Shown here: piece by piece, positions 1,571 through 33,360 of the stretch
Layout: every line of letters starts with the position of its first letter
Position numbering within the stretch: position 1 is the stretch's first letter
IMG/VR virus record: IMGVR_UViG_3300012931_000048
Coordinates: 1-37,798 of that record
DNA length: 37,798 nt
Direction: 5' to 3' (one strand)
DNA from: a virus
Position numbers and translations under genes: made by a program
Notes under the pieces: model-generated
Databases searched by the model: none
Told to the model about the DNA's origin: nothing
The model's input: only the letters and a program-made list of their open reading frames with translations

Positions 1571-1938
1571 AAATAAAAACAATAATTTTATTATGTTTAT
1601 TGACTGAGGTTGCTTTTGGACAAGATGTATCCACTCCAGTAATAAGCGATGCAACAATATCTATTGCTGATTTACAAATAAAAAATGCCAGTAACGAGGA
1701 AACCATTTCTGTGTTATCACAAAAATTGCGTGATAACACAGACGAGATAAAGTACCTAACTTATCGTATTCAGGATCTAGGTGAAAAAATAATGGGATTA
1801 TATCGAGTATTTCGGCAAATTTCGGAATCAATTGATACTTTAAAAAATGTAGAAGAAAGAGAAAAATTTTTACAAAACTTAAAACAAATTTGTTTTACTA
1901 TAATTTATCAGGAAATTCAGACTGGAGAAAAAAAATGA
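1567..1938 (+). CDS. Small secreted coiled-coil protein
   Basis: 123 aa. A clear Sec-type signal (MKIKTIILLCLLTEVAFGQD, likely cut after the Gly near residue 19) is followed by an alpha-helical, heptad-like region (about 45-115, with SEETISVLSQKLRDNTDEI-type spacing). It overlaps the preceding stop by ATGA and the following transglycosylase start by ATGA. A short periplasmic coiled coil beside a transglycosylase and a lipoprotein could be a spanin-like component, but nothing diagnostic is visible; a virion-associated adaptor is equally possible. Confidence 0.7.
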   Translation: MKIKTIILLCLLTEVAFGQDVSTPVISDATISIADLQIKNASNEETISVLSQKLRDNTDEIKYLTYRIQDLGEKIMGLYRVFRQISESIDTLKNVEEREKFLQNLKQICFTIIYQEIQTGEKK

Positions 1939-2471: not shown

Positions 2472-2848
2472 TAATTATCACGATGGCGATTGGTTTGATC
2501 GGATGTTCTGCATTTACTTTGCGCACGGCGAGAATTCAGAATGTTGAGCATGATCTAATTATCCGGGAAATAGCGGCCGGTGCACAGATGCAGGCTGGTG
2601 ACGGGACGACGATATCAGCCACACTTAGCGAGTCGGTAACTGGATCTGATCCAGTTACGATCGATGCAACGGGAGACGGTGTGGCTGGTATTTCTCGATG
2701 GTGGATTGGGAGTGTATCTGGGAGCGTAATTATTGAGAGAATATTGACAGATGCCCAGAACGTACCTATCCCTGAGGCATTGGGAAAACTCTATACTCCG
2801 GCGATATTTTCTGAAACAGTAAGATCATCTACAGGAGGAGGAAAATGA
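2456..2848 (+). CDS. Predicted lipoprotein
   Basis: 130 aa. MLWKIIIITMAIGLIGCSAF is a lipoprotein signal with lipobox L-I-G-C, lipidated Cys17. The mature part is beta-rich and Ser/Thr/Gly-rich (GTTISATLSESVTGSDPVTI). It overlaps the transglycosylase 3' end by 16 bp and the next gene by ATGA. A phage lipoprotein in a lysis cluster is often an outer spanin, but this one is not Pro-rich and has no obvious inner-membrane partner except possibly the coiled-coil protein at 1567-1938. The function is unproven. Confidence 0.72.
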   Translation: MLWKIIIITMAIGLIGCSAFTLRTARIQNVEHDLIIREIAAGAQMQAGDGTTISATLSESVTGSDPVTIDATGDGVAGISRWWIGSVSGSVIIERILTDAQNVPIPEALGKLYTPAIFSETVRSSTGGGK

Positions 2849-15314: not shown

Positions 15315-18016
15315 GACTTTCTAGGTACTACCAACAGGAACAACTTACAAATCAATCACCATTAATTATGCAATCTAATCCATTTATTTCTCCTTTAGAG
15401 ATAGTTGGAGAGGGTTTATCCAATATATTTGAGCGTGTGGCTCAACAGGATCAACAGACCTATCTTGCAGAAGAATCGGCGCGGTCTCAGGCAAAAGTTT
15501 TTGAGATTGCCGACCAGGTAGAACAGGATATCAACGCTGGTAAAATTCTCGATCAGCGGGAAGTAGAGGAAGCGTTTAGAACCCGTGTTGATGAATCCTT
15601 TGGAGAAATGGGCATTCAGCCGAAGGTGAGAAGACAAATCCAGCCCGATCTAACACGGTTGATGGCGGTTAATGGGTTGAAACTCAATAAGGCGCTGGCC
15701 GTCAAGCGGGCGGACATTGAAGTAAAGAATCTAAACGATTCCCTGGATACGTTCAAACGGAAGGCTATTGACGCGACTTCGCCGGATGAATTAAATGAAT
15801 ATTTGCGTTTGATACGAGAAACCGTATCCAATGTGGAGGGAACATTTATAGACGAAACAAAGAAGCAGGCGGTTATTGCCGAAGCTTTGGATTCTATTCA
15901 CTCTTCCAGGGCAAATCGTTTATTGCTGGATCCTGCCGTCGATCCAGCAATAATCAAGGAATATTTAACAGTTCATAAAGCGGATATAACGCCGGAAACT
16001 TTTGAGAGACTCAACGCCGTGGCCGAGGGACGCATTCAGACCGAAAAGGAGGACGGAATATTTTATAATCTCATAGATGGAATCGAATCCGCCCAAAACG
16101 ATGGCCGCGTAAATTTAGATTCAATTCGTAAACAAATTGATGATAACCATCGGATACTGGGCCGTGATACAGTAGTTCGTCTACAAAATATGGCGGAGTC
16201 TGTTGAACGAGAACGAAGAAGCACTGAGGCAAATACTGTTCTTGCTCAGATAGAGCAAGAAACATTTGTTAATGAAAATTATGATAAAGCAATTCAAATT
16301 TTAAACAAAAACCGATCATTATTTGATCAAGATCAATTTGCAAACGCTTTGGTAACTGTCGAACGAGCTCAAAAAGGAGAAATTGAAGCAAACCAACGAG
16401 AACAATTAAAAACCGCTGGGGACTTGGTTTTTAATAAGGTTTCCCGAGCGATAGCAATCGATGAAGATTTTGATAAAGCCAATCGAATATTAGAAGAAAA
16501 TAAACAATATATTGATCAGAATACATTTGAAGATATCCAATTGAAAATTGAAGAAGCAAAAAAAGGAATAATTGATGAAGAGGAACGGGATAAGCAATGG
16601 AGTAATGTCCCTTCATTTATGTCGCAAATTAAAATGGGAAATTATGACAATATTAATTCACAGCAAATGCGCCATAAAATTGATTCCGAGATTGTGGTGA
16701 ATAAGTCGATTCCGAGAGGATCGAGAATGCAATTGATGTCTGAATATGAACAGAGGCAATTAACCATATTTAATGACCGGCAAGAATTGGCAAATGATTA
16801 TAAAGCTATTACTAATGGGTTGATACCAACTAATGAAAAAACGGCGGAACGTCTGTGGAAATCTCAACCACAATCTCAAATTAATCCTACAGAATTTGGA
16901 GAGTTTGTTGATAGATTTGGTTCTTGGAAGTTCCAATATGACCACGTTAAAGATTTGATATTCAATTCGAATCAGGCTGCTGATTTTGCGCGTGGTGTGG
17001 AGATGGGTGTTCAACTCTGGTTTAAAAATCCCAAGAAGTTCAAGGAACAAACCGATGAGGATACCCGGAAAGCCATATTCTGGGGATATCAGGAAATACG
17101 CCATGTAGACAACCAGGATTATGAAATCGATCCGAAGACTGACCAGAGAATTTATTCTCCGAACAAAAACCTGCAAAACGCCAATGATAAGATCAAGAAG
17201 CGTTTATTCCCTGAAAAAGAAATTTTGGGATTCACGCCAGATAAGATCAATACCAAAGAGATAGCCAATACAGCCGATAAATTTTTGAATGACATTTTTT
17301 ATGATCCTGGATTTTTTAAACAAATTTCAGGGATTTCAACTATAAATTATATTTCTAAATTAGCTGGTTCTTTAGCTGGTAGTCAAACTCTGGGGATTCG
17401 TTTGCAAGCGGGTTATTCCACCATGCTAGAAAATATGTCTGGTCCTCCCTATGACGCTCGTGAGTTTTATGAAATCTTGGTAACGGGGAAGGTATTGGAT
17501 GGGGTGCAAGATATTCAGAAAGCGGCAGAACTGGCTTTACCGGAATTTCTCGATACCTATGGAGTTACACGGATCGGCGTAACTCCCGGTACGGGATATT
17601 GGCAAATAGCACCGCCGGAATGGTGTATAAAAAAAGAATTTTATTCTAAAGACTCCGCTGAACATGCCATCAAATTGTTTACTGATTCCATTTATCAGAA
17701 GGCCATCGAGCTGACAAAGGACAATCCACAATATACACCTTTGCGTTGGATTAAGGCCGAAGATAAGGGTTATGCCGATGAACCGATAACATGGAAAATA
17801 GAGGTTCCCCCTCCGGTGCGTCTTATTCCCAAAATTATTACGCTAAATAACCGGATGCCGGATTACTATCTGGGCTATGAAGACGAAAAAACAGGGGTAT
17901 TCGTTCAATTATACGAAAATAATCAACCGGTTATTATTTCCGGGGAAGAACAACTTGACGAACTGCGGAAAAGTTCCAACCGCGATTTATTTTATGAAAC
18001 CAAGGGAAATTTGTAA
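15311..18016 (+). CDS. Internal virion protein C-like (ejectosome)
   Basis: 901 aa, largely helical, charged and Gln-rich, with repeated helical units (for example FDKANRILEENKQYIDQNTFEDIQLKIEEAKKG resembling the preceding NYDKAIQILNKNRSLFDQDQFANALVTVERAQKG). Position between gp14-like and gp16-like genes and size agree with T7 gp15-type ejection proteins that build the trans-envelope channel. The C-terminal third (about 740-900) is more globular. ATGA-coupled to the previous gene. Confidence 0.78.
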   Translation: MRLSRYYQQEQLTNQSPLIMQSNPFISPLEIVGEGLSNIFERVAQQDQQTYLAEESARSQAKVFEIADQVEQDINAGKILDQREVEEAFRTRVDESFGEMGIQPKVRRQIQPDLTRLMAVNGLKLNKALAVKRADIEVKNLNDSLDTFKRKAIDATSPDELNEYLRLIRETVSNVEGTFIDETKKQAVIAEALDSIHSSRANRLLLDPAVDPAIIKEYLTVHKADITPETFERLNAVAEGRIQTEKEDGIFYNLIDGIESAQNDGRVNLDSIRKQIDDNHRILGRDTVVRLQNMAESVERERRSTEANTVLAQIEQETFVNENYDKAIQILNKNRSLFDQDQFANALVTVERAQKGEIEANQREQLKTAGDLVFNKVSRAIAIDEDFDKANRILEENKQYIDQNTFEDIQLKIEEAKKGIIDEEERDKQWSNVPSFMSQIKMGNYDNINSQQMRHKIDSEIVVNKSIPRGSRMQLMSEYEQRQLTIFNDRQELANDYKAITNGLIPTNEKTAERLWKSQPQSQINPTEFGEFVDRFGSWKFQYDHVKDLIFNSNQAADFARGVEMGVQLWFKNPKKFKEQTDEDTRKAIFWGYQEIRHVDNQDYEIDPKTDQRIYSPNKNLQNANDKIKKRLFPEKEILGFTPDKINTKEIANTADKFLNDIFYDPGFFKQISGISTINYISKLAGSLAGSQTLGIRLQAGYSTMLENMSGPPYDAREFYEILVTGKVLDGVQDIQKAAELALPEFLDTYGVTRIGVTPGTGYWQIAPPEWCIKKEFYSKDSAEHAIKLFTDSIYQKAIELTKDNPQYTPLRWIKAEDKGYADEPITWKIEVPPPVRLIPKIITLNNRMPDYYLGYEDEKTGVFVQLYENNQPVIISGEEQLDELRKSSNRDLFYETKGNL

Positions 18017-25448: not shown

Positions 25449-25494
25449 GCCGGGAAAATGTCCACTCTCCTATCATTTTCCCGGCATCTTTTTG
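25449..25494 (+). terminator. Perfect 12-bp stem-loop after rusA
   Basis: GCCGGGAAAATG (25449-25460) pairs perfectly with CATTTTCCCGGC (25474-25485) around a 13-nt loop, followed by ATCTTTTTG. It could be an intrinsic terminator or attenuator. The helicase-loader gene starts 11 bp after the T run with its own GAAAGGAAAACC site, so partial read-through or processing is likely. Confidence 0.7.
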
Positions 25495-26334: not shown

Positions 26335-27456
26335 ATGGTAAACGATTTTAGGATATCTACATCGTTTCGGGATAATATAAAGAGGATACGCCTACAACGC
26401 GCATTAGGGCCAGAAGGTGTACTAGCCATAATTGATCTATGGGGATATGCCGCGATGAACCGGCCGGACGGTACGCTAGATGGTATGGATGATGAAGCCA
26501 TATGCATCGCAGCTAATTGGCATGGAAAGATAGATGTTTTTATAAATGCAATTACGGATAAAAGATCTAATTTTTTAGATAAGGATGCTTCCGGAAATTA
26601 TATTTTACATGATTGGTCAACTCATAACCCATATGTTTCCGGGGCTAAAGATAGATCATCATCCGCAAGAAAAGCGGCAAAAAGTAGATGGATACAACCA
26701 TTATTAGAATCGCAATGCGGAGATGATGAAACCGCAATGCGGAATGTGCGAAACCGCAATGCGGAATGTGCGAAACCGCAATGCGGAAATGACGAAACCG
26801 CAATGCGGAATATGAAAAACCGCAATGCTCCATCTCCATCTCCATCTCCATCTCCATCTCCATCTCCATCTCCATCTCCAGAAAATATTTGCAAATCTAA
26901 AAATACGGATTTGCAATCCACACCAAAAAATATTTCAAAATCAGAGTCAGGAATGCCAGAAGAAAGGACGGAAACGGCCCAAGGTTTAAATATTATTTTA
27001 AACCCGACGCAAACCACCAATGAATTAGAAAAATCAATCCTGGGGGAAATGGGGCTGGATTCTCAAAATGATAAAAATGCAGAGTTTATTGCGATATGGA
27101 ACATCTGGCCTTCAACTCGCCGGGAAAGCAAAAAGGCAGTTTTAAAATCTTTTTCTTCCGCAATAAAACGAGAAAATTTTTCCACAATCATCCAGGGAGC
27201 TAAAAATTATTGCAATTCTCCCTACGTCACTAGCCGGATTGAGATGGGAGAATTTTCCACCATCAAAACATTACCCGCATGGCTTAATTCAGATTTATGG
27301 GAAAGGGATCCTGCCTCCTTCCAAGAACCATGTGCTTCCTGGCAAAAAAAACATTGCCAAAGGGAAAAACAAAATACCGCTTTTGGGGCAACCAATTTTG
27401 TAAGTCCCCAAAGCGGTATTAATCCAAAATCACAATATCAAAATAAATGGGAATAA
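26335..27456 (+). CDS. Replication initiator / replisome organiser containing the origin
   Basis: 373 aa. The N-terminal domain (about 1-110, RISTSFRDNIKRIRLQRALGPEGVLAIIDLWGYA) is the Lin1244/Lin1753-like winged helix of phage replication proteins. The C-terminal domain (about 243-330, FIAIWNIWPSTRRESKKAVLKSF... TIKTLPAWLNSDLWERD) matches the FWxxYP...K...TWLN..W pattern of initiators. Between them, about residues 125-165 are encoded by six 22-bp DNA iterons and 165-182 by a Ser-Pro hexamer tract. Layout parallels lambda O, where iterons lie within the gene. Last gene of the operon, before a bidirectional terminator. Confidence 0.85.
   Translation: MVNDFRISTSFRDNIKRIRLQRALGPEGVLAIIDLWGYAAMNRPDGTLDGMDDEAICIAANWHGKIDVFINAITDKRSNFLDKDASGNYILHDWSTHNPYVSGAKDRSSSARKAAKSRWIQPLLESQCGDDETAMRNVRNRNAECAKPQCGNDETAMRNMKNRNAPSPSPSPSPSPSPSPSPENICKSKNTDLQSTPKNISKSESGMPEERTETAQGLNIILNPTQTTNELEKSILGEMGLDSQNDKNAEFIAIWNIWPSTRRESKKAVLKSFSSAIKRENFSTIIQGAKNYCNSPYVTSRIEMGEFSTIKTLPAWLNSDLWERDPASFQEPCASWQKKHCQREKQNTAFGATNFVSPQSGINPKSQYQNKWE
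26711..26830 (+). repeat. Six 22-bp iterons: candidate replication origin
   Basis: CGCAATGCGG recurs at 26711, 26733, 26755, 26777 and 26799, and CGCAATGC at 26821: an exact 22-bp period. From the second copy the core is the palindrome CCGCA-A-TGCGG (the sixth is truncated). Because 22 is not a multiple of three, the repeat is read in a different frame each time, so selection must act on DNA, not on protein sequence. Two-turn spacing, position inside the initiator gene, and an AT-rich flank at 26881-26945 fit an iteron origin of the lambda-O type. Confidence 0.82.
26829..26880 (+). repeat. (TCCATC)n hexamer tract
   Basis: About eight copies of TCCATC follow the iterons and encode (Ser-Pro)n in the initiator. 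The strand asymmetry (pyrimidine on +, purine on -) and the following AT-rich 60 bp could help unwinding. On the other strand the unit is GGAGAT (Gly-Asp), the same type of hexamer that builds the Gly-X genes at 27811-30309. Confidence 0.75.
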
Positions 27457-28292: not shown

Positions 28293-28534
28293 TTTTTTCC
28301 CCGTCCAGATCCATCACCAGCGCCCGATCCATTGCCATTGCCATTTCCCTCACCATATCCAGAGCCAGTTTTATTTTCAGAGCCAAAGCAAAACCCCTTG
28401 CCATTTCCCTCACCATATCCAGAGCCAAAGCTAAACACATTTCCATAATCTATTTCAATTATTTTATTTTCTCCCGTCCAGCGCCTGCGCCCGATCGATC
28501 CATTACCGAATCCAAATCTATTTTTCGTCATCAT
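28289..28534 (-). CDS. (Gly-X)n repeat protein c, apparent fusion
   Basis: 81 aa. It starts MMTKNRFGFGNGS, then has a non-repeat segment SIGRRRWTGENKIIEIDYGN (about 13-32), then resumes Gly-X with two copies of a GSGYGEGNG block. The inserted segment is the translation of an inter-gene leader: TGGACGGGAGAAAATAAA followed by ATAATTGAAATA, where related leaders read ATGATTGAAAT. So two genes appear fused by loss of a start codon (ATG to ATA). A roughly 30-bp direct repeat lies at about 28339-28369 and 28400-28430. Starts at 28534 or 28531. Confidence 0.58.
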   Translation of the reverse strand: MMTKNRFGFGNGSIGRRRWTGENKIIEIDYGNVFSFGSGYGEGNGKGFCFGSENKTGSGYGEGNGNGNGSGAGDGSGRGKK

Positions 28535-28546
28535 ATTTTTTCTCGC

Positions 28547-28942
28547 TTAAAATATATATCCAGCGCCAGCGCCCGAGCCCGATCCATTGCCCGATCCAAA
28601 GCCATATCCAGCGCCATATCCAGCGCCATCGCCATAGCCAAATCCAGATCCAGCGCCATCGCCCGAGCCCGATCCATTGCCCTTTCCATTTCCAAATCCC
28701 GATCCATCGCCATAGCCAGATCCAAAGCCATAGCCAGATCCAAAGCCATCACCATCGCCATAGCCAAATCCATTGCCATATCCATCGCCATCGCCTGAGC
28801 CATAGCCATGGCCATCACTAAAGCCAAAGCCATCGCCAAATCCAGCGCCATAGCCATAGCCCGAGCCAGATCCATTGCCAAAGCCCGAGCCCGAGCCATT
28901 GCCAGAGCCAGAGCCCAATCCCAATTCAAATTTCTTAATCAT
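28547..28942 (-). CDS. (Gly-X)n repeat protein d, long form
   Basis: 131 aa. MIKKFELGLGSGSGNGSG... then about 60 Gly-X pairs, ending GSGAGAGYIF. The leader AAGCGAGAAAAAAT before its ATG is identical to that of the gene at 28534. It shares about 60 bp of identical DNA (near 28787-28850) with the gene at 29161 (about 29045-29108, GFSDGHGYGSGDGDGYG). This indicates recent recombination within the array. Function unknown. Confidence 0.62.
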   Translation of the reverse strand: MIKKFELGLGSGSGNGSGSGFGNGSGSGYGYGAGFGDGFGFSDGHGYGSGDGDGYGNGFGYGDGDGFGSGYGFGSGYGDGSGFGNGKGNGSGSGDGAGSGFGYGDGAGYGAGYGFGSGNGSGSGAGAGYIF

Positions 28943-28954
28943 ATTTTTTCTCGC

Positions 28955-29161
28955 TTAAAATATATATCCATTGCCATAGCCATCGCCAAATCCAAAGCCC
29001 GATCCACGGCCAAATCCCGATCCATCGCCACGGCCATAGCCATCGCCATCGCCTGAGCCATAGCCATGGCCATCACTAAAGCCAAAGCCATCGCCAAATC
29101 CAGCGCCATCGCCATCGCCAAATCCATAGCCATCGCCCGATCCATCTTTTATGTCGACCAT
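28955..29161 (-). CDS. (Gly-X)n repeat protein e
   Basis: 68 aa. MVDIKDGSGDGYGFGDGDGAG..., ending GDGYGNGYIF, the same C-terminal YIF as the gene at 28942. ACAGGAGAAAATAAA precedes the ATG, one of the best ribosome-binding sites in the array. It overlaps the 3' end of the upstream gene by 13 bp. X includes Arg three times. No transmembrane segment or signal. Confidence 0.62.
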   Translation of the reverse strand: MVDIKDGSGDGYGFGDGDGAGFGDGFGFSDGHGYGSGDGDGYGRGDGSGFGRGSGFGFGDGYGNGYIF

Positions 29162-29580
29162 TTTATTTTCTCCTGTCCAGAGCCGGAGCCAGCTCCATCA
29201 CCAGCTCCATCACCAGATCCATCACCAGATCCTTCGCCCGATCCTTCGCCCGATCCTTCGCCCGATCCATATCCCTCGCCATAGCCCGATCCAAATCCAT
29301 TGCCATAGCTATAGCCATCACCCGATCCATCGCCATATCCATCGCCCTTTCCCGATCCATTACCATAGCCATAGCCATCGCCATCGCCAAATCCAAAGCC
29401 CGATCCATTACAAAAGCAATAGACATCACCAAAGCCCGATCCTTCGCCATCTCCAAATCCATCGCCATTGCCATTGCCATTGCCAGATCCAGTTCCACGG
29501 CCAGAGCCAGATCCCTTTCCAAATCCCGTTCCCGATCCATATCCAGAGCCAGCGCCATCGCCAAATCTATTTTTCGTCAT
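29149..29580 (-). CDS. (Gly-X)n repeat protein f, longest
   Basis: 143 aa. MTKNRFGDGAGSGYGSGTGFG..., with one break GFGDVYCFCNGSGFG (two Cys, about 50-64) and an acidic block of repeated GSGEGSGEGSGD near the end, finishing GQEKIKWST. The C-terminal EKIKWST is the reading of the downstream leader, so this gene runs through it. CGGGAGAATATAA precedes the ATG, which overlaps the end of the upstream gene. The two Cys are exceptional in the array. Confidence 0.62.
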   Translation of the reverse strand: MTKNRFGDGAGSGYGSGTGFGKGSGSGRGTGSGNGNGNGDGFGDGEGSGFGDVYCFCNGSGFGFGDGDGYGYGNGSGKGDGYGDGSGDGYSYGNGFGSGYGEGYGSGEGSGEGSGEGSGDGSGDGAGDGAGSGSGQEKIKWST

Positions 29581-29794
29581 TTATATTCTCCCGCGATTTT
29601 ACCTCTAATTTGTCATACATCTCTTCTGCTTTTTCATATGATTTAAAAAATTTAATCGCAATTTTTTCAGGCCTAATTTTTAAAACCCGGCCAAATTTCT
29701 TTATTTTTAAATATTGTCCCTTAGTCAAGGGTTTTCCTTCTTTCCAATTTATTTTTACTGTATCAACATGAAATCCATCCGATATTTCAATCAT
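29567..29794 (-). CDS. MIEIS-family small protein, copy 1
   Basis: 75 aa of normal complexity inserted among the Gly-X genes: MIEISDGFHVDTVKINWKEGKPLTKGQYLKIKKFGRVLKIRPEKIAIKFFKSYEKAEEMYDKLE. It is paralogous to the protein at 32266-32490 (same MIEIS-GFH start, I-x-W-x-EG-x-x-L-x-x-x-QY, LKI-x-PE). GGACGGGAAAAAAA precedes the start and ATGA coupling joins it to the upstream gene. Family unknown; a small regulator of host or phage function is plausible for early genes of this size. Confidence 0.72.
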   Translation of the reverse strand: MIEISDGFHVDTVKINWKEGKPLTKGQYLKIKKFGRVLKIRPEKIAIKFFKSYEKAEEMYDKLEVKSRENINDEK

Positions 29795-30030
29795 TTTTTT
29801 TCCCGTCCAGAGCCATCACCAGCGCCAGAGCCAGAGCCATTGCCCTTTCCATTTCCAAAGCCCGATCCATCGCCACGGCCATAGCCAGATCCAAAGCCAT
29901 CACCATCGCCAAATCCCGATCCATCGCCATAGCCAGATCCAGCGCCATCACCATCGCCAAATCCCGATCCATCGCCATCGCCATATCCAGATCCATAGCC
30001 ATCGCCCGATCCATCGCCTATTTTAATCAT
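29791..30030 (-). CDS. (Gly-X)n repeat protein h
   Basis: 79 aa. MIKIGDGSGDGYGSGYGDGDGSG..., ending GAGDGSGREKK. The full modular leader (30039-30062) ends in GCGGGAGAAAAATAA before the ATG. It shares its first 16 codons almost exactly with the next gene (30309). Contains internally repeated GSGFGDGDG blocks. Acidic, with aromatic Tyr/Phe at regular intervals. Confidence 0.65.
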   Translation of the reverse strand: MIKIGDGSGDGYGSGYGDGDGSGFGDGDGAGSGYGDGSGFGDGDGFGSGYGRGDGSGFGNGKGNGSGSGAGDGSGREKK

Positions 30031-30038
30031 TTATTTTT

Positions 30039-30062
30039 CTCCCGCGATTAGAGTCCGCCGAC
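30039..30062 (-). promoter_or_regulatory. Modular leader L1
   Basis: On the minus strand it reads GTCGGCGGACTCTAATCGC then GGGAG, placing the ribosome-binding site before the ATG at 30030. Same element as at 30318, 30693, 31867, 32213 and 32600. Confidence 0.75.
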
Positions 30063-30066
30063 TATA

Positions 30067-30309
30067 TTAATCGCCATATCCATAGCCATCGCCAAATCCA
30101 GCGCCATAGCCCGAGCCAGAGCCATCGCCATCGCCACGGCCACGGCCCGAGCCATATCCATTGCCATCGCCACGGCCATCGCCATCGCCATAGCCATCGC
30201 CATCGCCCCGGCCAAATCCATTGCCAGATCCATAGCCCGATCCAGAGCCACATCCACGGCCATAGCCAGATCCATAGCCATCGCCCGATCCATCGCCTAT
30301 TTTAATCAT
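30067..30309 (-). CDS. (Gly-X)n repeat protein i
   Basis: 80 aa, first of the Gly-X genes in transcription order. MIKIGDGSGDGYGSGYGRGCG..., ending GAGFGDGYGYGD. X includes Arg at several positions and one Cys. The modular leader (30318-30341) with GCGGGAGAAAAATAA precedes the ATG. Its TAA stop is immediately followed by the leader of the next gene. Confidence 0.65.
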   Translation of the reverse strand: MIKIGDGSGDGYGSGYGRGCGSGSGYGSGNGFGRGDGDGYGDGDGRGDGNGYGSGRGRGDGDGSGSGYGAGFGDGYGYGD

Positions 30310-30317
30310 TTATTTTT

Positions 30318-30341
30318 CTCCCGCGCTTAGAGTCCGCCGAC
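30318..30341 (-). promoter_or_regulatory. Modular leader L2
   Basis: Minus-strand GTCGGCGGACTCTAAGCGC followed by GGGAG, nine bases before the ATG at 30309. Nearly identical to the other leaders. Confidence 0.75.
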
Positions 30342-30343
30342 TG

Positions 30344-30374
30344 TGATGAGTGGCCGCAACGCGGCCACTCATCA
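30344..30374. terminator. Perfect 14-bp hairpin, GC-rich (copy 1)
   Basis: TGATGAGTGGCCGC pairs perfectly with its complement across a 3-nt loop (AAC). It follows the DUF6948-like gene and precedes leader L2. There is no T run, so it is more likely an mRNA 3'-end stabiliser or processing signal than a strong intrinsic terminator. Confidence 0.65.
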
Positions 30375-30387
30375 TTCACGCCCAAAC

Positions 30388-30684
30388 CTACTCGAGACAT
30401 TCCTCGTAGGTTTTTTCAGCCAATTCCGTAGTCGGAATTAACTCGATCGCTTCGGTGAGTAAGATCTCCCCAGTCCGCTCGGTTCTCCCGCCTTTCATTC
30501 CTTCATTGGCGATGGCAGATAGAGATAGTCCACCACCCTCCCAACACCAGATACGGATTGAGGAAGTTAAATAAACTTCCTTGCCTAAGACGTATTCCAC
30601 GTGGCCCCAATGCACTCCCGCCGAATACGTCCGCACGATACAATTCCGCCCAACCATTGGGTTTACTATTGTTTTTTCCGTCAT
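30388..30684 (-). CDS. DUF6948-like phage protein
   Basis: 98 aa. CIVRTYSAGVHWGHVEYVLGKEVYLTSSIRIWCWEGGGLSLSAIANEG... TGEILLTEAIELIPTT matches the conserved pattern I recall for DUF6948 (VRTYSAGVHxG ... GKEVxLxxxRRIWxWxGAxxLxxIAxxG ... EIxLTEAIEIIP), small phage proteins of unknown function. GCGGAGAAAATATA precedes the ATG. The coding sequence contains perfect inverted repeats (30422-30428 with 30433-30439; 30561-30568 with 30574-30581). Confidence 0.8.
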   Translation of the reverse strand: MTEKTIVNPMVGRNCIVRTYSAGVHWGHVEYVLGKEVYLTSSIRIWCWEGGGLSLSAIANEGMKGGRTERTGEILLTEAIELIPTTELAEKTYEECLE

Positions 30685-30692
30685 TATATTTT

Positions 30693-30715
30693 CTCCGCGC
30701 TTAGAGTCCGCCGAC
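30693..30715 (-). promoter_or_regulatory. Modular leader L3
   Basis: Minus-strand GTCGGCGGACTCTAAGCGC then GGAG, serving the ATG at 30684. Same element as the other leaders. Confidence 0.75.
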
Positions 30716-30723
30716 TATTATTA

Positions 30724-30744
30724 AGTGGCCGCAACGCGGCCACT
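30724..30744. terminator. GC-rich hairpin (copy 2)
   Basis: AGTGGCCGC pairs with GCGGCCACT across an AAC loop. It overlaps the stop of the degraded gene copy at 30744-30891 and precedes leader L3. Same hairpin core as at 30344 and 32244. Confidence 0.65.
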
Positions 30745-30891
30745 CATTTATGCCCATATTTCCATGCCGCTGCGCCTAGAGCGCGTAAAAATTCCTCTCT
30801 CGCATCATCTGGGTAGATCTGTATCTCTCTCGCGCCGCATGTGCACCCCTCCCACGGGCATAGATGCTTTCGTATGCGCCATTTCAATCAT
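30744..30891 (-). pseudogene. Truncated MIEIS-family gene copy
   Basis: The last 44 codons read RIRKHLCPWEGCTCGAREIQIYPDD... FLRALGAAAWKYGHK, clearly homologous to the C-terminal half of the protein at 32266-32490 (RILKHLCPWEDCTCGGRDLKIYPEE... FLRALGAAAWEYGHI). The first codons ATG ATT GAA also match its start, but the middle third is deleted and start and body are in different frames. The only possible start in the body frame is a TTG overlapping the previous stop. A relic or a TTG-started short protein. Confidence 0.65.
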
Positions 30892-31351
30892 TGCATTCCT
30901 CCTCCCTCTCCAAAGCGACACCAAATTTTAGCAAAGAAGAAAAAAAAGTACTAACGTTGCTGTGGCCGGAATCCCATTGGATCTCCGCCCACTCTCCATA
31001 TCCCCCTGGATATGGTATCTTGCCGAGGGGTTTGGCCCTGAAAAAACGATTCAGACGGTATGAATTACTACTGTCGGTGAATTCAGGATCGGGACGCCAT
31101 TCATACCAAGCGCCCAGTTTGGTTATCAAGCGCCCAGTTTGGACTTCCTCCATCTTTGTAATTTTGGCAATTCGATATAGTCGGGCTGGACCGATAACTC
31201 GTACCGCGTCCAACGGCGTTCGGCCAAAAACATCAGGCGCAATTCCCATAGCCAAGGCTTCCATTATTGGCGCCACTTGCGATTCTAAAACAATTAATTT
31301 TCCGGACTTTTTTTTCAATTCCAAATCCGGGTAGGGGATGAACTTATGCAT
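30884..31351 (-). CDS. Early protein, unknown, first gene behind promoter P1
   Basis: 155 aa with AAAGGAGAAATAAA before the ATG, 35 bp from the P1 -10 box. MHKFIPYPDLELKKKSGKLIVLESQVAPIMEALAMGIAPDVFGRTPLDAVRVIGPARLYRIAKI..., ending EREEECND. Mixed alpha/beta, no signal or membrane segment. The coding DNA holds a 16-bp direct repeat CAAGCGCCCAGTTTGG (31107-31122, 31127-31142), read in two frames, and a perfect hairpin (30996-31003 with 31008-31015). No family recognised. Confidence 0.75.
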   Translation of the reverse strand: MHKFIPYPDLELKKKSGKLIVLESQVAPIMEALAMGIAPDVFGRTPLDAVRVIGPARLYRIAKITKMEEVQTGRLITKLGAWYEWRPDPEFTDSSNSYRLNRFFRAKPLGKIPYPGGYGEWAEIQWDSGHSNVSTFFSSLLKFGVALEREEECND

Positions 31352-31385
31352 TTTATTTCTCCTTTTTCCTCTACTCTATGATGAT

Positions 31386-31414
31386 ATTATATCTCAATCG
31401 GCCCTAGATGTCAA
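31386..31414 (-). promoter_or_regulatory. Early leftward promoter P1
   Basis: On the minus strand TTGACA (31414-31409), 17-bp spacer, TATAAT (31391-31386): perfect sigma-70 consensus, with an A-rich UP-like tract upstream. The surrounding 67 bp (31369-31435) are identical to those of P2. The start of transcription should fall near 31379, giving a short leader to the ATG at 31351. Confidence 0.9.
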
Positions 31415-31490
31415 GTACTTTTTTCACTTTTTTTTGTAGGGTGGGGTGATTATCCCACCACGATTCCACCACGCCCTGCCGGGCGCATAA

Positions 31491-31533
31491 ATTAATGGGG
31501 GGGGGAGCAAGGTCTCCCCCCCCGACCATTAAT
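31491..31533. terminator. Long G/C-run hairpin
   Basis: ATTAATGG plus a nine-G run and AG pairs with CTCCCCCCCC and CCATTAAT (31491-31507 with 31514-31533, small GA bulge). It lies at the 3' end of the gene at 31533-31859, overlapping its stop. A second hairpin GCCC/GGGC lies at about 31473-31484. Probable end or processing site of the P2 transcript. Confidence 0.65.
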
Positions 31534-31859
31534 TATATCACCAATACTTCTTCCCCCTTTTCTATCCATTCCGCGTTTTTCACTCTTTCTTTTTCTTTTA
31601 TTTCGGCTAATTTTTTCGCCCCTTTTCGCAATATTTCTAGATCAAATTCGAATCCTCCTTCAATTTTAATTTCTCCCTCATTCCAATCCTTCACTTCGGG
31701 GTGATTGAATCGTATACCCTTAGGGATGCCCCAAAAACTATTAATGTCTTTCAAATATTCATCCCGTAATTCGCTTTTCGGCTTCACCCCGATTATTTCT
31801 ACAATTTTAACGAACCGCTCGCATTCGTTCCGGATTTCGTGATTTATTTTTATCTTCAT
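31533..31859 (-). CDS. Small early protein, charged, unknown
   Basis: 108 aa. MKIKINHEIRNECERFVKIVEIIGVKPKSELRDEYLKDINSFWGIPKGIRFNHPEVKDWNEGEIKIEGGFEFDLEILRKGAKKLAEIKEKERVKNAEWIEKGEEVLVI: an alpha/beta protein with a long basic-acidic helix near the C-terminus. GCAGGAGAGAAAAA, part of leader L4, precedes the ATG. No family recognised. Its stop overlaps the strong hairpin at 31491-31533. Confidence 0.75.
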   Translation of the reverse strand: MKIKINHEIRNECERFVKIVEIIGVKPKSELRDEYLKDINSFWGIPKGIRFNHPEVKDWNEGEIKIEGGFEFDLEILRKGAKKLAEIKEKERVKNAEWIEKGEEVLVI

Positions 31860-31866
31860 TTTTTCT

Positions 31867-31891
31867 CTCCTGCGCTTAAGGTCCGCCTGAC
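31867..31891 (-). promoter_or_regulatory. Modular leader L4
   Basis: Minus-strand GTCAGGCGGACCTTAAGCGC then AGGAG before the ATG at 31859; one extra base relative to the other leaders. Confidence 0.72.
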
Positions 31892-31902
31892 CATTATTGG
31901 TG

Positions 31903-31944
31903 CTCTACTTCTCCCAACTACCTAAGTAGTTGGGAGAAGTAGAG
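31903..31944. terminator. Perfect 19-bp hairpin with 4-nt loop
   Basis: 31903-31921 pairs perfectly with 31926-31944 around CTAA. It lies between the stop of the gene at 31967-32203 and leader L4. A diverged copy lies at 32637-32677, and both are next to the same AGGATCAATCCATTTCATCC segment (31943, 32678), so the 3' module was duplicated. Confidence 0.72.
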
Positions 31945-31966
31945 GATCAATCCATTTCATCCTCTA

Positions 31967-32203
31967 CTACCACAAAAAGATCCTTTCCTCTTCCCGCCCA
32001 TCGGGGAAAAGAACCCCGATGAATTTTATCCCCCCACCGATTTCCAGAATGGAATCGGTATCTCCCAAGATTTCTTGGGAGATACTGCGACCAAATTCAT
32101 CCTCTTCTCCGGCAAGATATGCCGGAGAAGTCGAAATAAACGATGGATATATATGCCCCTCTCCAATCGGGTTGTAGTTTATATAATACTTTTCCATTCT
32201 CAT
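31967..32203 (-). CDS. Small early protein encoded by four consecutive hairpins
   Basis: 78 aa: MRMEKYYINYNPIGEGHIYPSFISTSPAYLAGEEDEFGRSISQEILGDTDSILEIGGGIKFIGVLFPDGREEERIFLW. Start at 32203, or 32197 (second Met). The ribosome-binding site in leader L5 is weak (GCAGAAAAAAC). The coding DNA contains four near-perfect inverted repeats in a row (31999-32021, 32036-32059, 32058-32085, 32104-32130), highly unusual for a gene. No family recognised; acidic, no membrane segment. Confidence 0.7.
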   Translation of the reverse strand: MRMEKYYINYNPIGEGHIYPSFISTSPAYLAGEEDEFGRSISQEILGDTDSILEIGGGIKFIGVLFPDGREEERIFLW

Positions 32204-32212
32204 TTTGTTTTT

Positions 32213-32234
32213 TCTGCGCTTAAGGTCCGCCGAC
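32213..32234 (-). promoter_or_regulatory. Modular leader L5
   Basis: Minus-strand GTCGGCGGACCTTAAGCGC followed by AGAAAAAA before the ATG at 32203; here the GGAG core has decayed. Confidence 0.72.
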
Positions 32235-32243
32235 CAGTTTTAT

Positions 32244-32268
32244 TGAGTGGCCGCTTTGCGGCCACTCA
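32244..32268. terminator. GC-rich hairpin (copy 3)
   Basis: TGAGTGGCCGC pairs perfectly with GCGGCCACTCA across a TTT loop. The TGA stop of the gene at 32266-32490 lies in its right arm, as in the related copy at 30724. Confidence 0.68.
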
Positions 32269-32490
32269 TATATGCCCATATTCCCATGCCGCTGCGCCTA
32301 GAGCGCGTAAAAATTCCTCTCTCATCTCCTCTGGATAGATCTTCAGGTCTCTCCCTCCGCATGTGCAGTCCTCCCACGGGCACAAATGCTTTAGTATGCG
32401 CCGATATTGCCGAAGGCTCAATACCTCGCCTTCGTACCAATCAACTCTTATTGCCGCGACATTATGAAATCCGCCACTAATTTCAATCAT
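32266..32490 (-). CDS. MIEIS-family small protein, copy 2 (with Cys cluster)
   Basis: 74 aa: MIEISGGFHNVAAIRVDWYEGEVLSLRQYRRILKHLCPWEDCTCGGRDLKIYPEEMREEFLRALGAAAWEYGHI. Paralogue of the protein at 29567-29794, but with an added CPWEDCTCG segment (Cys37, 42, 44) that could bind metal. AAAAGGAGAAAGAAA precedes the ATG, 37 bp from the P2 -10 box, so it is the first gene of that transcript. The coding DNA has a perfect 7-bp inverted repeat (32411-32417 with 32428-32434). Unknown function. Confidence 0.76.
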   Translation of the reverse strand: MIEISGGFHNVAAIRVDWYEGEVLSLRQYRRILKHLCPWEDCTCGGRDLKIYPEEMREEFLRALGAAAWEYGHI

Positions 32491-32526
32491 TTTCTTTCTC
32501 CTTTTTTCTCTCTACTCTATGATGAT

Positions 32527-32555
32527 ATTATATCTCAATCGGCCCTAGATGTCAA
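32527..32555 (-). promoter_or_regulatory. Early leftward promoter P2
   Basis: Minus-strand TTGACA (32555-32550), 17-bp spacer, TATAAT (32532-32527). Identical to P1 over 32510-32576. An A-rich tract lies upstream. Confidence 0.9.
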
Positions 32556-32599
32556 GTACTTTTTTCACTTTTTTTTTTGTAATTTCCCTTGACTTTTTT

Positions 32600-32623
32600 C
32601 TCCTGCGCTTAAGGTCCGCCGAC
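32600..32623 (-). promoter_or_regulatory. Orphan modular leader L6
   Basis: Minus-strand GTCGGCGGACCTTAAGCGC then AGGAGAAAAAA, but the expected ATG is GTC and no ORF follows: promoter P2 begins instead. It is the remnant of a module whose gene was lost or replaced. Confidence 0.68.
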
Positions 32624-32636
32624 CATGATTGATACT

Positions 32637-32677
32637 CTTCCTCTCCCGACTACCTATATAGTAGTGGGAGAAGGAAA
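32637..32677. terminator. Imperfect hairpin after the 50-aa gene
   Basis: ACTAC/GTAGT plus CTCCC/GGGAG-type arms with single bulges. It is the diverged counterpart of the perfect hairpin at 31903-31944 and follows the stop at 32681. Confidence 0.6.
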
Positions 32678-32680
32678 GGA

Positions 32681-32833
32681 TCAATCCATTTCATCCTCAT
32701 AATCGCCCATATAGATGCTCATCTCCGCATCATTAAAAATTTGCTCCATGAGCATCAATTCTTGGATTTCGACTTCCTCCCGGATATCCGGGAGGTAATT
32801 TAGCAATAATTCCTGGCGTTCAATCGCATTCAT
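32681..32833 (-). CDS. Short acidic early protein (first gene behind P3)
   Basis: 50 aa: MNAIERQELLLNYLPDIREE then VEIQELMLMEQIFNDAEMSI then YMGDYEDEMD. Strongly acidic, amphipathic helical. AAAGGAGAAAGAAA precedes the ATG at 32833, 36 bp from the P3 -10 box, strong evidence despite the small size. The coding DNA contains a perfect 20-nt palindrome (32776-32795) and a 9-bp inverted repeat (32714-32722 with 32758-32766). Small acidic early proteins often inhibit host enzymes; that is only an analogy. Confidence 0.75.
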   Translation of the reverse strand: MNAIERQELLLNYLPDIREEVEIQELMLMEQIFNDAEMSIYMGDYEDEMD

Positions 32834-32868
32834 TTTCTTTCTCCTTTTTTCTCTTAATTTATACTCAT

Positions 32869-32897
32869 ATTATATCTCATTCAGGCCTAGATGTCAA
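32869..32897 (-). promoter_or_regulatory. Early leftward promoter P3
   Basis: Minus-strand TTGACA (32897-32892), 17-bp spacer, TATAAT (32874-32869). The spacer is a variant of that in P1/P2 (TCTAGGCCTGAATGAGA). The outermost early promoter. Confidence 0.9.
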
Positions 32898-32929
32898 GCA
32901 CTTTTTTTACTTTTTTTTGTAATATTATT

Positions 32930-33360
32930 CTCCCTCTTACCTATTAATGTAGTTATCCCCCGCACTATCTATCGGCGCCCATCCAATCCAAGTTCAGAGC
33001 AATCCTCCCCCGCCTTGTTTCTTTCTTTTCCTTCTTTCCCTTGACTTTTTTTTCTCCGATCGTATACTCTCCAAAAAAAGAAGAGGGAGAGGGGGGGGGT
33101 GGGGGGGGGGGCGTAGGCGATGATTCCTCCCTACCTTACTTCGCACTTCTTCTTTTCTTTTCCTTCTTTCTCTCTCTCACTTCTCTTTCTTATATAATAT
33201 AATATATCAAAGAAATGTAAATTAAAAAGTTTACATCCCCGCAACCTCTCTTATCTTCCTCACCCTTATTCAATCGAAATTCCCCCCACCCCCTCTCCCC
33301 TCATTAATCTCCCGCCCGCTCATTCTCTTCCTTTATCTCTCCCCCTCGCATTTTTAGCAT
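32930..33360. other. Non-coding pyrimidine-rich region with G tract
   Basis: No ORF with a ribosome-binding site was found on either strand. The plus strand is mostly C/T runs. 33091-33111 is G9-T-G11, a likely G-quadruplex or polymerase-slippage site. An inverted repeat ATGTAAA/TTTACAT (33215-33221 with 33230-33236) overlaps a weak minus-strand promoter-like pair (TTTACA, 16 bp, TATTAT). TATATAATATAATATAT at 33191-33207 is strongly AT-rich. It separates leftward early from rightward genes, so regulatory or packaging roles are possible. Confidence 0.55.

Follow-up and report, generated by a model that had tools for sequence, protein, structure and literature searches.

The perfect inverted repeats inside the small minus-strand genes of this phage are, as we judge with reasonable confidence, the local part of a genome-wide excess generated by template switching, and the hairpins between these genes are separate functional modules. 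The window, which is the whole stretch of DNA analysed, comprises 37,798 bp and corresponds to a complete virus record (IMG/VR record IMGVR_UViG_3300012931_000048). Its forward genes encode the terminase, the portal (head-tail adaptor), the major head protein and tail proteins, and the structural genes are followed on the same strand by a RecT-like annealing protein, a DnaC-like helicase loader and a replication initiator. The region 30388-32833 is a block of small minus-strand genes, mostly of unassigned function. Within the phage collection, the closest portal proteins, headed by those of Pelagibacter podoviruses, are about 32% identical, and all relatives found in the portal alignment lie at or below about 35% identity. 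No match emerged when the first 25 kb were compared with phages by megablast, single-query searches of IMG/VR with the 78-aa gene, the 155-aa gene and the portal returned no close relatives, and homologue searches with the 78-aa gene found none (ORFan).

An earlier note had described the small minus-strand genes as densely packed with perfect hairpins. We compared six of these genes with 2000 synonymous codon permutations each, a null in which dinucleotides spanning codon borders are not preserved. Perfect hairpins exceed the shuffles jointly at p=0.0005, which bears out part of that description, and at p=0.002 when the 78-aa gene is left aside. The genes and their hairpins are as follows.

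31967..32203, minus strand: ORFan gene of 78 aa that carries four hairpins in a row (p=0.0005)
31999..32021, minus strand: 8-bp perfect hairpin with a 7-nt loop, 78-aa gene
32036..32059, minus strand: 10-bp hairpin with a 1-nt bulge, ACCGATTTCCA/TGGAATCGGT, 78-aa gene (sequence read and folding)
32058..32085, minus strand: 13-bp perfect hairpin with a 2-nt loop, 78-aa gene
32104..32130, minus strand: 11-bp perfect hairpin with a 5-nt loop, 78-aa gene
32681..32833, minus strand: 50-aa gene in which a 20-nt perfect palindrome occupies 32776-32795 and a 9-bp pair lies within 32711-32759 (p=0.015)
30388..30684, minus strand: 98-aa gene, DUF6948 (PF22253), with two 8-bp arms, one extending beyond the stop codon
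30884..31351, minus strand: 155-aa gene with 8-bp arms at 30996-31015, within chance (p=0.21)
32266..32490, minus strand: 74-aa gene with 7-bp arms at 32411-32434, within chance (p=0.13)
31533..31859, minus strand: 108-aa gene, also part of this block, in which hairpins of at least 7 bp are absent

The signal originates mainly from the 78-aa gene, with contributions from the 50-aa gene and, weakly, from the 98-aa gene (p=0.015). Three of the four arms reported for the 78-aa gene are perfect (8, 13 and 11 bp), while the one given as 10 bp carries the bulge; the palindrome and the 9-bp pair of the 50-aa gene are both present, and among the short arms claimed for three further genes only those of the 98-aa gene rise above chance. 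A long-range 9-bp pair in the 78-aa gene (32018-32026/32093-32101) encloses two of its four hairpins. The folding energy, for which codon-shuffled controls had been proposed, lies below the shuffles for the minus genes on the sense strand (z -3.4) and for the 78-aa mRNA (z -4.1), which has a compact multi-helix predicted fold.

The excess is not special to the small early genes and is found all over the genome. Comparison of each gene with its own synonymous permutations gave 11 coding inverted repeats of at least 10 bp in the whole genome against 1.1-1.3 expected, and 8 of at least 11 bp against 0.5. The statement that structural genes are without such hairpins does not hold, as the forward genes alone contain 19 perfect repeats of at least 9 bp (4.6 expected) and 8 of at least 10 bp (0.93 expected, with a maximum of 4 in 100 shuffles). 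Examples on the forward strand are listed here.

1708..1742, plus strand: perfect inverted repeat with 13-bp arms, within a forward gene
2636..2658, plus strand: perfect inverted repeat with 11-bp arms, within a forward gene
15920..15953, plus strand: perfect inverted repeat with 13-bp arms, within a large forward gene
25449..25485, plus strand: perfect inverted repeat with 12-bp arms, within the gene of the DnaC-like helicase loader
27373..27420, plus strand: 15-bp arms, matched except for one T·C pair, within the gene of the replication initiator

The replication-initiator gene also holds iteron-like repeats with dyads inside them (26732-26808). As controls we took nine annotated phages and 77 portal-bearing IMG/VR loci, in total 86 sequences and 912 kb; they hold 28 inverted repeats of at least 10 bp against 26.9 expected, and the studied phage heads the ranking. 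The minus block is only marginally denser in repeats than the rest of the coding DNA: it makes up 1.7 of 29.9 kb and holds 3 of the 11 repeats of at least 10 bp (binomial p=0.02) and 3 of the 21 of at least 9 bp (p=0.12). The 78-aa gene is extreme even within its own genome, and a uniform mutation process alone leaves that unexplained. The hairpins first noticed in the block are real, but the frame drawn around them was too narrow.

What kind of process leaves such repeats? Under one shared null, inverted repeats (27 vs 6.0 expected) and direct, slippage-type repeats (36 vs 15.3) are both raised, whereas mirror repeats (8 vs 6.5) and complement repeats (5 vs 4.8) show no excess in the coding sequences of the genome. 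Because these two classes stay at background, chance or base composition is ruled out as the cause. The inverted-repeat excess falls with spacer length, from 7-fold at 0-10 nt to 2.7-fold at 10-40 nt and 2.1-fold at 40-80 nt; the control phages have no consistent excess by spacer class. Over the genome, local folding lies below that of the shuffles for the sense strand (z -8.6) and for the antisense strand (z -9.3) alike, and the energy ratio, which is higher for sense than for antisense in 7 of 8 control phages, is not so in the studied phage. Perfect stems are enriched (18 vs 4.2 expected), while one-mismatch stems with a sense G·U pair are not (2 vs 1.5, small counts) and those with an A·C pair number 2 vs 2.2; stems with one mismatch outside these two classes are also enriched (15 vs 7.2).

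The repeat classes, the spacer decay, the folding on both strands and the lack of G·U bias favour a DNA-level process such as template switching, and with its genome-wide reach this is the better supported of the two causes that the earlier note had offered. From the symmetry and the decay with distance, template switching during DNA replication is the most likely origin of the coding hairpins. The nascent strand would fold back on, or jump to, a neighbouring near-complement, the copying of which would leave two perfectly complementary arms (quasipalindrome correction), and the new arms would be tolerated wherever the protein permits. Quasipalindrome correction of this kind is known in prokaryotes, and we infer that its level here is extreme for a phage.

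Could the coding hairpins instead be selected at the RNA level, to protect or regulate early mRNA through RNase III processing, 5'-3' protection or translation pausing, with codons kept accordingly? We regard this as unlikely. The sense-strand folding of the minus genes, the compact fold of the 78-aa mRNA and the marginally higher density of the minus block would agree with it, but the late structural genes are enriched too, antisense folding is equal or better, G·U pairs are not enriched, and the 108-aa gene of the same block is without hairpins. Strand symmetry alone cannot exclude RNA selection, because perfect Watson-Crick stems fold on both strands. Folded early mRNA, the other cause that had been offered, is nevertheless unsupported as a general one, since the excess extends to the late structural genes and since, measured against shuffles, folding of the 78-aa gene is stronger in antisense (z -6.2) than in sense (z -4.1).

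It is very improbable that the repeats have a function at the DNA level, as binding sites or cruciforms for replication, recombination or packaging: the signal is strand-symmetric and the initiator gene has its iteron-like, dyad-containing repeats (26732-26808), but the listed arms differ in sequence, length and spacer, unlike sites for one protein. Amplification chimeras produce inverted repeats, and the source is an IMG/VR virus contig; we give still less credence, however, to an assembly or amplification artefact (fold-back chimeras, MDA), as the frames are open through every listed repeat, the arms are short, the spacers are short and exact, and the 77 other IMG/VR loci have no excess. Dispersed palindromic elements inserted in frame, comparable to those of Rickettsia or Wolbachia, can practically be dismissed, for although palindromes do sit inside open frames and the intergenic hairpins form repeated families, the hairpins within the 78- and 50-aa coding sequences match only themselves (blastn of the 30331-33100 block against the window).

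Apart from the coding repeats, for which template switching is the preferred origin, the intergenic hairpins are functional modules that have been duplicated along with the genes. The minus-strand genes are separated by repeated modules that consist of an inverted repeat and, before the next ATG, a near-constant leader, and sigma70-type promoter copies stand upstream of three minus-strand genes of the block.

31903..31944, minus strand: 19-bp intergenic hairpin, module type A
32627..32686, minus strand: imperfect intergenic hairpin, module type B, paralogous to A
30344..30374, minus strand: 14-bp intergenic hairpin TGATGAGTGGCCGC/GCGGCCACTCATCA, with sister copies at 30724-30744 and 32244-32268
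31384..31414, minus strand: sigma70-type promoter TTGACA-17-TATAAT, with sister copies whose 5' ends are at 32555 and 32897, minus strand

The inverted repeats of the modules comprise three copies of TGAGTGGCCGC/GCGGCCACTCA and two of the 19-bp type. According to blastn, modules and promoters are duplicated within the block, and modules A and B share a duplicated segment of 106 bp that is 87% identical. A second, decaying copy of the 74-aa gene lies at 30750-30887. The stretch that follows the 50-aa gene, with the codons for the last five residues of that gene included, recurs as non-coding DNA behind the 78-aa gene. Visual inspection of the alignments shows four non-Watson-Crick pairs at the differences between paralogous intergenic hairpins, and three of them are G·U in the mRNA; the cases are few, and they point in the direction of RNA. 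We rejected intrinsic termination for the AGTGGCCGC hairpins, as a U-run is absent from the sequence downstream. Rfam matches in the block were limited to weak microRNA models under their gathering scores.

The leader of these modules consists of GUCGGCGGACNNUAANCGC and a Shine-Dalgarno sequence, and can be written as a hairpin N-GUC[GGCG]GAC-N' followed by UAANCGC. The phage carries six copies, five of them with a hairpin upstream.

32209..32238, minus strand: leader hairpin GGTC-GGCG-GACC..TAAGCGC before the 78-aa gene
31865..31895, minus strand: leader copy with a 5-nt loop before the 108-aa gene
30690..30719, minus strand: leader copy before the 98-aa gene
30316..30345, minus strand: leader copy before the 80-aa Gly-rich repeat gene
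30037..30066, minus strand: leader copy before the 79-aa Gly-rich repeat gene
32598..32627, minus strand: orphan leader copy, with a promoter instead of a gene downstream

The leader of the 78-aa gene is without the GGAG that its sister copies have. In GTDB genomes the pattern GTCGGCGGACYYTAAGCGC has nine exact matches, against a chance estimate of about 7.5, and all nine directly precede a Shine-Dalgarno-like sequence and an ATG; they lie in Treponema, other Spirochaetia and Patescibacteria. With the N positions left free, eight sites were found in Spirochaetota and zero with the reversed control, and further sites lie on ten IMG/VR contigs, in a scan that demanded GRG 3' of the motif. A relaxed pattern gave mostly unconvincing matches.

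Over 32 distinct sites the closing pair is A-T in 17, C-G in 6, T-A in 5, G-C in 2 and non-pairing in 2. The flanking bases pair in 30 of the 32, using all four Watson-Crick pairs, and in 29 of the 31 rows of a curated alignment, whose covariation score was reached by none of 500 shuffles. A predicted stem variant with GCC/GGC for GUC/GAC precedes a Shine-Dalgarno sequence and ATG in all three contigs found with that pattern, although the flanking pair is missing in two of them; weaker leader copies in two phages have the same replacement and a start codon downstream. On the strength of these alignments the leader stem covaries and is under RNA-level selection in many genomes. The loop GCG and the tail CGC are invariant in the set, which was selected by pattern, and may form a 3-bp pseudoknot. 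Judging from its position, with the 3' end of the 19-nt element a few bases upstream of the Shine-Dalgarno sequence, the leader probably controls translation initiation. A metabolite sensor for a single pathway is unlikely because the genes downstream are diverse.

Rfam 15 contains no covariance-model match to the leader (E<=1 and gathering thresholds), and a text search for its sequence returned nothing relevant. We are inclined to believe that N-GUC[GGCG]GAC-N'-N-UAA-N-CGC represents a class of cis-acting RNA that has not been described before, whose stem covaries, which may form a GCG:CGC pseudoknot and which controls the start of translation in phages, Spirochaetota and Patescibacteria, within a phage whose coding DNA has been reshaped by unusually frequent template switching. 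A host-lineage effect on the coding repeats was considered and rejected: chromosome segments of Treponema, Patescibacteria and Spirochaetota, picked solely for sharing the leader, have no comparable excess (5, 5 and 1 repeats of at least 10 bp, with 2.5-3 expected each). In a small set of leader-bearing loci, repeats are mildly raised (10 vs 3 expected).

With an excess far beyond that of the 86 others, this phage offers a natural genome for testing the old dispute on whether coding inverted repeats reflect mutation bias or selected mRNA structure. One stretch of DNA displays the separation: strand-symmetric coding hairpins without G·U bias on one side, and a leader hairpin that covaries across phyla on the other. 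The leader itself is apparently a new RNA element, very small and linked to translation.

Several known systems resemble parts of this picture. Ladoukakis and Eyre-Walker, whose work is discussed in PMC4060949, ascribe to template switching the over-representation of short inverted repeats in the coding DNA of prokaryotes. The likeness lies in perfect short coding repeats, proposed to be imperfect palindromes made perfect; the excess described there is small, at 6-9 bp and in cellular genomes, whereas that of this phage is about 8-fold at 10 bp or more. Quasipalindrome-associated template-switch mutations are documented in phage T4 rIIB and E. coli thyA (PMC7202029), and template switching has been proposed to create RNA hairpins (PMC8794818). 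Both share local fold-back copying that yields perfect arms, but those studies show the mutation events and this phage shows the standing product only. Mitochondrial genes of Nematomorpha likewise contain perfect inverted repeats inside protein-coding genes, of up to 284 bp as compared with 8-13 bp here (PMC6649704). The SAS/ESAS of cluster K mycobacteriophages are similar to the leader modules in being repeated asymmetric sequences immediately before start codons, often with an inverted repeat upstream (PMC3203893). The SAS consensus GGGATAGGAGCCC is unrelated to the leader of this phage and does not match it, and unlike SAS/ESAS the leader is a covarying hairpin found across phages and bacterial phyla.

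The start-associated leader of the small minus-strand genes takes the form N-GUC[GGCG]GAC-N'..UAANCGC, with a covarying stem, and stands 5' of the Shine-Dalgarno sequence and ATG. It is common to phages, Spirochaetota and Patescibacteria, and has no match in Rfam 15. The copies in the window and the further loci are:

30037-32627, minus strand: six leader copies in the window
L094-L102, L112, L113, L133-L139, L160-L169, L177-L179: leader loci in addition to the window copies

In the leader of the 78-aa gene (32205-32222) the GGAG Shine-Dalgarno has been lost, while it is kept in the sister copies. In several Spirochaetota (loci L096, L098, L101 and L134) the leader lies 5' of a gene whose product, judged by eye, looks like a candidate fusion of a rubredoxin-like domain with a QueD/6-carboxytetrahydropterin-synthase-like domain.

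The 74-aa gene has a decaying second copy at 30750-30887, which is 84% identical over 203 bp, adjoining hairpin and leader included; this copy is frameshifted and has lost about 75-80 nt in a large internal deletion.

The leader also precedes two of the genes for Gly-rich repeat proteins (GDGSGYG...) at 28500-30330, the coding DNA of which consists of degenerate GATGGC-type repeats. The replication-initiator gene contains tandem repeats, CCGCAATGCGG..GAAACCGCAATGCGG, within 26732-26808, possibly origin iterons. Across the coding sequences of the window, 36 close direct repeats of at least 9 bp were observed vs. 15.3 expected under synonymous codon permutation, an excess larger than that of other phages.
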